Under the pieces are notes generated by a model. It was not told the DNA's origin. It saw only the letters and a list, made by a program, of their open reading frames with translations, and searched no databases. A stretch of DNA of 64,000 nucleotides, taken from positions 808,282 to 872,281 of the forward strand of contig NZ_JBCAUS010000002.1 in NCBI RefSeq assembly GCF_038432375.1, written 5' to 3'. Made by a program: the position numbers and the translations under genes. Source of the DNA: Methanococcoides sp. LMO-2. GTDB lineage: Archaea; Halobacteriota; Methanosarcinia; Methanosarcinales; Methanosarcinaceae. Below, one piece after another: positions 60,773 through 63,596 of this stretch. Position 1 is the first letter of the stretch. The number at the start of each line of letters is the position of its first letter.

Positions 60773-60825
60773 ACACCGCATGGTGTTAACATATCTTTTT
60801 TGATCGTTCTTTGGGAGGAATCTTC

Positions 60826-61677
60826 ATGATCAGATCCCTTATGAACCTCTTCTACAAGACCTATGAAAGGGCTCTTTCAAAAGATGTTAAGAGCGGAACT
60901 GTTCCCGAACATGTGGCCATAATCATGGATGGTAACCGCAGGTTCGCTAGCAGGCTTGGGAAAAGAACAAGCTATGGCCACTCAAAGGGCGCTGATGTGA
61001 CTGAAAAAGTAATAGAATGGTCATATGACATCGGTGTGAAAGAACTCACAGTCTATGCCTTTTCCACAGAGAACTTTAACAGGTCTTCCGACGAAACATT
61101 GCAGCTGTTTGATCTTATCGGAAGTAAGTTCGATTATATGAGAGAGAACGAACGAACTCATGAAAGAGAGATAAGAGTGCGTGTTATAGGAGACCATTCC
61201 CTTCTTCCGGAAGAGCTTCAGAAATCTGCCAGAAAGATAGAGCAGGCAACAAAAGACTACGACAAATTCAACCTGAATGTTGCACTTGCCTATGGTGGAA
61301 GGCAGGATATCGTCCAGGCTGTCAGGAAAATGGCAGATAAGGTCCTTAAAGGACAAATATCACTGGAAGATATCAACGAATCCACTATTGCCGATCATTT
61401 TTATCCTTCAGAAGGTGCAGCAGTCTCTAATGTTGACCTCATAATACGTACAGGCGGAAACGAAAGGATATCCAATTTCCTCCCCTGGCAGGCTAACGGG
61501 AATGAATGTGCCGCATATTTCTGCGCACCTTTCTGGCCCGAGTTTCGCAGGATCGACTTCTTAAGATCAATACGTATCTACCAGGCACGCCTGGCTGAAC
61601 AGAAGAAGAAAGAAAATCACCGAACAACCCATTTTCTTAAAGAAATTACCAAAACCGGTGATGGACATTGCCAATGA
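60826..61677 (+). CDS. uppS: Cis-prenyltransferase (undecaprenyl/dolichyl diphosphate synthase)
   Basis: 283 residues. Makes the long-chain polyprenyl carrier lipid from farnesyl or geranylgeranyl diphosphate and IPP, used for glycan assembly. IIMDGNRRFA with Asp35 is the catalytic motif; GHSKGADV, YAFSTENFNR (about 80-89) and RTGGNERISNFLPWQ (about 205-219) are all conserved. ATG 60826 is chosen because GGGAGGAATC lies upstream. In archaea the product carries N-glycans, a link to the sugar genes at 1-4 kb and 53 kb. Confidence 0.95.
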   Translation: MIRSLMNLFYKTYERALSKDVKSGTVPEHVAIIMDGNRRFASRLGKRTSYGHSKGADVTEKVIEWSYDIGVKELTVYAFSTENFNRSSDETLQLFDLIGSKFDYMRENERTHEREIRVRVIGDHSLLPEELQKSARKIEQATKDYDKFNLNVALAYGGRQDIVQAVRKMADKVLKGQISLEDINESTIADHFYPSEGAAVSNVDLIIRTGGNERISNFLPWQANGNECAAYFCAPFWPEFRRIDFLRSIRIYQARLAEQKKKENHRTTHFLKEITKTGDGHCQ

Positions 61678-62063: not shown

Positions 62064-62154
62064 CTCCATGTCAACAGAGGTTTTGAAGTTACTAACATGG
62101 AAAAATATATATAAGCTCCATGTCAATTGAGGTTTAAGGGCTAATTTCATGGAG
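62064..62154 (+). promoter_or_regulatory. MtmB-like gene promoter flanked by two copies of a hairpin element
   Basis: Unit A (62064-62101) and unit B (62116-62154) both begin CTCCATGTCAA, share GAGGTTT and end in CATGGA, so each can form a CTCCATG/CATGGAG stem. The TATA box AATATATATAAG (62104-62115) lies between them, so unit A is upstream of the promoter and unit B covers the expected start of transcription near 62140. The units are 52 bases apart. Confidence 0.65.
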
Positions 62155-62225
62155 TTTTCACAAAATAGAAAGTAAGACAAAATGAAATAAAAAAGACAAA
62201 AACGGGACAAAAAGGAGTCAATATT

Positions 62226-63596
62226 ATGAACAACATATACAAGTACCTCAGATCTGCCACCACAGGCGAAGAGAAACCAGAAGAAAAACATGACATGAAT
62301 GTGTTCATGAAGTCACAGGAACTGGCTGAAGAATTCGATATCAAATATGATGGGGAAAGTATTGTACCAACAGATACGAGCCTTGCAGACTCCGTATTTG
62401 AAGCTGCCATTCAGTTATTGACATCTGTGGGGATTTACTGCACAGATACAAAGAAAACGATACAGATCGAAGAAGAGGATATTACCAGATATCTAAACAC
62501 TTCCGAAACGCTTGAGATCGGAAGAAAGAATGAAAAGGTCACAGTTCCCTTCAGGTACATTATGGATTCCGAACCTCCAGTCATAATCGGAGGACCCATG
62601 GGAGGTACTGTTTCCGAAGAGAATTTCCTTGAAGTACACGTGAGTTCCGCCATGGAGCCTATTGTACAGGGCATATATGCAGGTGCACTTGAAAAGATGG
62701 GAGGCAAAGGAATACGCGGGAAAACTCCATTTGAGATGCTTGCCGCACTGAAGGAAGCCAGGGAAGAAAGGCTTGCAACAAAACTTGCAGGTCGTGAAGG
62801 CCTCACATTGATGGGACCCGGAACACCAACCATCTCTCCCGCATATATGCTGGTTTCTTCTGAAGAACTGTACTCCAGTGCAGATGTCCAGGAGGTCTAC
62901 CAGTTGGATGAACTTAAGACCGACTATGAGACATTTTACAAATCCATATTCCACCTTGAGCACGGAAACCATTTCCTGAGCGGCCAGTGTCCGGTATTTG
63001 GAGGAACAGGTATCGGTTCACCTGAAGGACTTGCCATTGTAGATGTTGCAGAGACCATCCAATCAAAGGTGCTCACCGGTGCCAGTTTGCATGTTTCCGG
63101 TGCGGTGCATGTGAATACGAACTCATCCTCAACAAAAGAGATCATGTGGGGATCTAACCTGTCTTCTCTTGCCATTTCACGCAACATGCACCACTACACA
63201 GCAAGATATTACTGGAACCTTGCAGGCTGCTGTACAGACATGATGTTCTATGAGACCGCTGCACAGGCCATCGGAGATACTGTTTGTGGAAGAGACATGC
63301 TGATTGGACCGGTAGGTGCCCGCGGAGCAGGCGCAGATCACTCAACAGGACTCGAGTCCAGGTTCATGGGAGAAGTTGCACATATGGCAACCGGACTTTC
63401 ACTTCTGGAAGCAGATGAGGCTGCACGGAACATCTACAGGAAATATGAAAACCTGCTAGCGTATGCTCCGGAAGGCAAACCTTTCGGCGAATGTTATAAC
63501 GTAAGATCGGAATATGAAATGAAACCCTCAGAAGAATATCTGGCCATCTACAGGGATGTATTTGCGGAAGTTAGCAAGTACTGTGGCATCGAGTGA
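62226..63596 (+). CDS. MtmB-family methylamine:corrinoid methyltransferase homologue lacking pyrrolysine
   Basis: 456 residues, about the length of MtmB (458). MtmB moves the methyl group of monomethylamine to its corrinoid protein. Shared landmarks, from my memory of MtmB: GIYCTDT (69-75), GGPMGG, KTPFEMLAA, CPVFGG, IVDVAETI, the C-terminal GLESRFMGEVAHMATG and GKPFGECYNV. The pyrrolysine of MtmB lies in GMGV-Pyl-GPET; here the equivalent is GLTLMGPGT, with Met196 (ATG 62811-62813), and there is no in-frame TAG. The substrate is thus unknown and may not be a methylamine. GGAG 9 nt before the ATG. No corrinoid gene is adjacent; orphan at 20909. Confidence 0.85.
   Translation: MNNIYKYLRSATTGEEKPEEKHDMNVFMKSQELAEEFDIKYDGESIVPTDTSLADSVFEAAIQLLTSVGIYCTDTKKTIQIEEEDITRYLNTSETLEIGRKNEKVTVPFRYIMDSEPPVIIGGPMGGTVSEENFLEVHVSSAMEPIVQGIYAGALEKMGGKGIRGKTPFEMLAALKEAREERLATKLAGREGLTLMGPGTPTISPAYMLVSSEELYSSADVQEVYQLDELKTDYETFYKSIFHLEHGNHFLSGQCPVFGGTGIGSPEGLAIVDVAETIQSKVLTGASLHVSGAVHVNTNSSSTKEIMWGSNLSSLAISRNMHHYTARYYWNLAGCCTDMMFYETAAQAIGDTVCGRDMLIGPVGARGAGADHSTGLESRFMGEVAHMATGLSLLEADEAARNIYRKYENLLAYAPEGKPFGECYNVRSEYEMKPSEEYLAIYRDVFAEVSKYCGIE

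Follow-up and report, generated by a model that had tools for sequence, protein, structure and literature searches.

A pyrrolysine-less MtmB homolog of Methanococcoides that branches apart from MtqB and apparently shares an operon with an Orc1/Cdc6-like gene

Introduction

Homologs of the monomethylamine (MMA) methyltransferase MtmB that lack pyrrolysine (Pyl) were already noted in 2010. One of them has since been characterized: MtqB of Methanococcoides methylutens Q3c demethylates tetramethylammonium and choline and has a residual MMA activity of 11 nmol/min/mg. Its gene lies downstream of an mtbC-like gene (the mtqC-mtqB order), several Pyl-less mtmB genes are present in the Q3c genome, and in the accompanying tree of 1,061 MtmB homologs the Pyl-less ones other than MtqB have no known function (PMC13044021, March 2026). 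A related idea, that of a Pyl-less relative of methylamine methyltransferases taking a quaternary amine, is represented by MtgB and other Pyl-less enzymes of the MttB family (COG5598), although these belong to another protein family, which the predicted structure described here matches weakly in fold (9yce, E 1.9e-4, TM 0.44). Pyl-less relatives show what methylamine methyltransferases are capable of without the 22nd amino acid, and they bear on the question of why pyrrolysine exists.

Here we analyze such a gene in a 64,000-nucleotide stretch of Methanococcoides DNA, referred to as the window throughout. A sequence-only reading had presented it as an undescribed Pyl-less MtmB parallel to MttB and MtgB. 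As a kind, Pyl-less MtmB relatives are already published, and this claim of novelty does not hold for them; the refuting condition named in that reading, a published characterized Pyl-less MtmB clade, applies to the kind and not to the clade of the window gene (the window clade), which is distinct from the characterized MtqB. Now that MtqB has been characterized, the window clade, whose members occur in methanogens of marine and saline settings, offers a second natural experiment in this fold and could extend the list of compounds converted directly to methane.

Results

The window gene (Table 1) has no internal stop codons and is located in the genome of a marine Methanococcoides, 2.31 Mb in 14 contigs (G000). 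Its product matches the PF05369 (MtmB) model with 531.1 bits (cut-off 25) over residues 3-452 of 456 and profile positions 2-448 of 450. It aligns to the MtmB crystal structure 1L2Q with an E value of 1.3e-74 and is 33% identical to M. barkeri MtmB1 (1L2Q, 1NTH). NCBIfam assigned no family to it at E 0.001. The top Foldseek matches of a structure predicted from 16 close sequences are 1L2Q, 1NTH and 1TV2 (E about 1e-29), and the TIM barrel is of the MtmB type, with TM 0.78-0.79 to 1L2Q/1NTH for a model of middling confidence (mean pLDDT 69.5). Residues 121-227 fall below pLDDT 50, which makes the center of the barrel weak, and we therefore read the pocket from the alignment alone.

Table 1. Features of the locus, in window coordinates.
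Feature	Position	Strand	Evidence
Undecaprenyl-diphosphate-synthase-type (uppS-type) prenyltransferase, upstream neighbor	60811..61677	+	PF01255
Promoter box 1, CCATGTCAACAGAGGT	62066..62081	+	Exact match
TATA-box-like AATATATATAA between the boxes	62104..62114	+	Sequence; conserved in upstream-region alignment
Promoter box 2, CCATGTCAATTGAGGT	62118..62133	+	52 bp from box 1
Likely ribosome-binding site AAAGGAG	62212..62218	+	Sequence
Pyl-less MtmB-family methyltransferase gene (window clade), 456 aa	62226..63596	+	PF05369, 1L2Q/1NTH alignment, Foldseek
Codon ATG (Met196), column of Pyl202	62811..62813	+	Alignment, ortholog comparison
Orc1/Cdc6-like AAA+ protein, 399 aa	63613..64000, continues to G000:C2:873090	+	Cdc6_C, Cdc6_lid, AAA_16

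In the alignment, Pyl202 (the X in 'GMGVXGPET' of 1L2Q) pairs with Met196 ('GLTLMGPGT'), which bears out the earlier description of a full-length MtmB homolog with methionine at the Pyl column. The same ATG codon is found in seven orthologs, six of them from Methanococcoides, and in the wider window clade this column is always hydrophobic (Met, Phe, Val, Leu or Ile) and never encoded by TAG. Pairwise dN/dS values among the window gene and its orthologs range from 0.04 to 0.12 (about 0.05); the gene is intact and under purifying selection. A sequencing error that replaced TAG, which had been named as a possible pitfall, is thus out, as are a recent TAG mutation and a decaying gene, because the methionine is conserved in independent genomes and dN/dS is low. 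The accompanying change of E259, Q333 and Y335 further contradicts an artefact.

Relative to MtmB, the alignment of the window protein shows Met in place of Pyl202, Gly in place of E259, Tyr in place of Q333 and Trp in place of Y335. Positions 259, 333 and 335, which we take from the MtmB structure papers to be Pyl contacts, are conserved among the Pyl enzymes aligned. Clade-wide, E259 is mostly replaced by Gly or Ser, Q333 by Tyr and N332 by Arg or Lys; Y335 is mostly Trp, with Arg, His or Phe in some members, and Glu229 is retained in all members except three. Over the whole length, the window clade and Pyl MtmB have 66 columns in common at which both are at least 95% conserved and carry an identical residue. 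Judging from the alignment, the pocket has been remodeled on a preserved scaffold. The window protein is similar to M. barkeri MtmB1 in its full-length homology, in these shared columns, in its best fold match and in Glu229, whereas it differs from MtmB proper in that an in-frame TAG (Pyl) at 202, E259, Q333 and Y335, and an adjacent mtmC are all missing.

Of the five PF05369 genes in the host genome, two contain a single in-frame TAG (C2:509216 and C2:518993); the others are the window gene and two further stop-free, Pyl-less genes (C3:29541 and C3:47405). In an unrooted tree of 57 sequences, built with the Pyl column excluded, the window clade is on one side of a branch with 100/99 support and the Pyl enzymes are on another, also with 100/99; MtqB-like genes form a third group, with 100/100 support once the long-branch row L107 is set aside. 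Next to the window clade, which is spread over six genera of Methanosarcinaceae, lies another Pyl-less group, with C3:47405 among its members (100/98). The gene falls on a Pyl-free branch inside the MtmB family, as anticipated from the sequence. The proposed loss of Pyl is not shown: without a root, and with the Pyl enzymes together on one side of a branch, the tree would be explained just as well by a single gain. The gene at C3:47405-48706 (L052) is a third type of Pyl-less MtmB homolog in this genome, with a corrinoid gene approximately 1.8 kb upstream.

The MtqB-like set consists of C3:29541 and genes of two other genomes (G001 and G005). A corrinoid gene (C3:30948-31529) is located directly upstream of C3:29541, and the same arrangement is seen for both relatives. 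The assignment of this set to the MtqB clade comes from gene order and from the 76.7% identity of the G001 and G005 proteins, which is near the published 78% between MtqB of strains Q3c and AM1 (PMC13044021), the Q3c sequence itself being absent from the tree. With C3:29541 the window protein shares 31.3% identity, and with the MtqB-like proteins about 30%; it falls outside their clade and has the uppS-type gene, rather than mtqC, directly upstream. As judged on the MtqB-like genes of the three genomes, the window protein and MtqB have in common the PF05369 fold family, the lack of Pyl, Tyr333 (in most MtqB-like proteins), an aromatic residue at 335 and Cys261 (Phe335 together with Cys261 in the Methanococcoides ones). 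They differ at position 229 (Leu or Thr in MtqB-like proteins, Glu in the window protein), at position 259 (Cys versus Gly) and in gene context, the partner being a corrinoid gene for MtqB and an Orc1/Cdc6-like gene for the window gene. By its place in the tree, the window gene is a branch separate from MtqB inside the MtmB family.

Gene neighborhoods of the window clade were compared across genera; for G-numbered genomes the genus names are those that we presume, and for L035-L049 they come from the records. An MtbA gene is divergent from the clade gene in 16 Methanolobus and Methanomethylovorans loci, and most of these loci also carry a Pyl mtmB on the far side of the clade gene; the one MtbA member tested scored 666.8 bits with NF041608 (cut-off 600). 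In six loci of Methanohalophilus and Methanolobus-type genomes (three from Methanohalophilus, Methanolobus bombayensis L047, and L045/L046), whose clade members form one subclade, the divergent gene encodes a BCCT transporter of the betaine/choline type. The one transporter tested scored 499.8 with TIGR00842 (cut-off 407.55) and 603.8 with the glycine-betaine BCCT model, which is under its cut-off of 650. Corrinoid protein genes lie close by in two cases: one ends 39 bp before the clade gene in Methanolobus bombayensis L044, and another is directly downstream of it in L041. Taken together, the MtbA, BCCT and corrinoid neighbors suggest that the methyl group comes from a methylated ammonium compound and passes through a corrinoid protein and MtbA. 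The BCCT transporters may, however, serve osmolyte uptake alone. No corrinoid gene was found near the window-clade gene in any Methanococcoides locus examined, and the nearest one on its contig in the host genome is more than 300 kb away.

In the window, the methyltransferase stop codon is separated by 16 nt from the Orc1/Cdc6-like gene, which is followed after 25 nt by a hydantoinase-A-like gene (block G000:C2:871894-875044, L050), and the three genes form an apparent operon. This trio recurs in most Methanococcoides having the gene and in one genome of another genus (G225). The prenyltransferase gene holds the same place in most Methanococcoides and lies beside a decayed locus in M. burtonii; it serves as a locus anchor and is not part of the system. 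In the latter genome (G006, which we take to be M. burtonii), the flanks are kept and the block is lost, leaving a decayed hydantoinase-like remnant with stops (L140, G006:C1:27722-28288), and no ortholog of the Cdc6-like gene was found.

Upstream of the window gene, two copies of CCATGTCAANNNAGGT 52 bp apart flank the TATA box. When sought throughout the host genome as a guide to a cognate corrinoid gene, this motif gave exact matches at the window locus only, and no partner. The box pair is conserved before the Methanococcoides orthologs and in L041, and weaker copies are present upstream of the clade gene in G225. It is absent before clade members of genera without the Cdc6-like gene, and also in L044, even though a Cdc6-like gene lies there on the other side of the clade gene. 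Since the box-bearing genes form one subclade, the co-occurrence of boxes and the Cdc6-like gene counts as one event and not as independent proof. We also located the main-origin boxes of Methanococcoides (TCCANNNGAAAC followed by a G run), which agree by eye with the promoter boxes at 8 of 12 specified positions (9 in G225). The origin region that goes with the nearest Cdc6-like homolog outside the genus group searched, on the second replicon of Methanohalobium, gave no clear box match. In G007, an insert of about 6 kb with transposase-like and serpin-like genes is located between the two boxes (L147, G007:C5:119841-125822).

Discussion

With moderate confidence, we favor the view that the window protein works as a corrinoid-dependent methyltransferase, belongs to the MtmB fold family in a clade distinct from MtqB, and either lost Pyl or never had it; that it takes a charged methylammonium donor and passes the methyl group through a corrinoid protein encoded elsewhere and MtbA to coenzyme M; and that its promoter is probably regulated. 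In such an enzyme no covalent MMA adduct would form on Pyl. The barrel would bind a methylammonium compound that already carries a charge, either a quaternary amine or a tertiary one in protonated form, and Met202, Tyr333, Trp335 and Cys261 (MtmB numbering) would line the pocket. The good leaving group, which Pyl must create, would thus come with the substrate. Co(I) of a corrinoid protein, its gene lying elsewhere in the host genome, would then accept the methyl group, and MtbA would pass it from the methylated corrinoid to coenzyme M. The missing corrinoid gene near the Methanococcoides genes speaks against this explanation. The sequence-only reading of a Pyl-free branch with another methyl donor or role is upheld as to the branch itself; the residues surrounding Pyl are replaced, which makes a different donor the best reading, and we infer that this donor is likely another methylated ammonium compound. 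The similar pocket changes in MtqB-like proteins, a type proven to act on quaternary amines, support a charged amine for the window clade as well.

Could the protein have ceased to be an enzyme and serve instead in binding, sensing or regulation? The Orc1/Cdc6-like gene that stands in Methanococcoides loci in place of a corrinoid partner would fit such a role, which we nevertheless consider improbable given the 66 columns shared with Pyl MtmB along the whole length and the corrinoid or MtbA neighbors in other genera. A donor from outside the amines, be it a sulfonium, a thiol or a methoxy compound, is comparably improbable. Some BCCT transporters take dimethylsulfoniopropionate, and members of the window clade presumably occur in dimethylsulfide-using genera; against this, MtbA, the neighbor in 16 loci, is an amine-specific coenzyme M methyltransferase, and the proven Pyl-less relative takes quaternary amines. 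Slightly less improbable, though still unlikely, is Pyl-independent MMA demethylation at a low rate, for example for nitrogen scavenging. It is suggested by the residual MMA activity of MtqB (PMC13044021) and by the Pyl mtmCB pair near the clade gene in Methanolobus and Methanomethylovorans, but E259, Q333 and Y335 are replaced, the genomes already have at least two TAG mtmB genes, and an adjoining BCCT transporter does not suit MMA.

That the window protein is MtqB itself, a tetramethylammonium and choline methyltransferase, is very unlikely. Both are Pyl-less, with aromatic residues at 333 and 335, and come from the same family and genus; moreover, M. vulcani, a choline user according to the title of L'Haridon 2014 as cited in PMC6498239, shows the window-type gene alone, without an MtqB-like gene. 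We reject the identity on the basis of the separate clade, the identity of about 30% and gene order, since it is C3:29541 in the same genome that has the published MtqC-MtqB order (PMC13044021). In addition, Methanococcoides seepicolus LLY, in which the window-clade gene is present with intact boxes (L040), uses betaine, ascribed to MtgBC, and not choline (PMC8547467), which argues against the same identity and makes choline unlikely as the sole substrate. Similarly, N,N-dimethylethanolamine is unlikely as a substrate requiring the window gene: M. burtonii, which lacks this gene, is reported to use the compound (PMC4239356).

Regulation of the operon probably acts at the TATA box and its two flanking boxes, and the operon's own Orc1/Cdc6-like product is a possible regulator; on the basis of the motifs, we hypothesize that this protein may bind the two origin-box-like elements. 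A non-initiator Orc1/Cdc6 transcription regulator is known in Orc1-2 of Saccharolobus (PMC9738581), likewise an AAA+ winged-helix protein; Orc1-2, however, is a global DNA-damage regulator, whereas the neighbor of the window gene would be a local one. More speculative, and in our opinion doubtful as a whole, is the full proposal: that the window clade is a second separate line of Pyl-less MtmB enzymes using a methyl donor of its own, and that in Methanococcoides it is switched by the Orc1/Cdc6-type protein of the same operon, bound to origin-recognition-like boxes on either side of the TATA box. A relative of replication initiators would then have become the local regulator of a gene for methanogenesis. 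As far as we found in the literature, an Orc1/Cdc6-like gene with a two-box promoter has no earlier description as the setting of a methanogenesis gene.

Hydantoinase-A-like proteins of about 640 residues occur in several copies per genome in G000, G006, G010 and G013. According to hand-compiled lists for these four genomes, 10 of 27 such genes are located within 8 kb of a corrinoid gene, compared to 1.4 expected by position.
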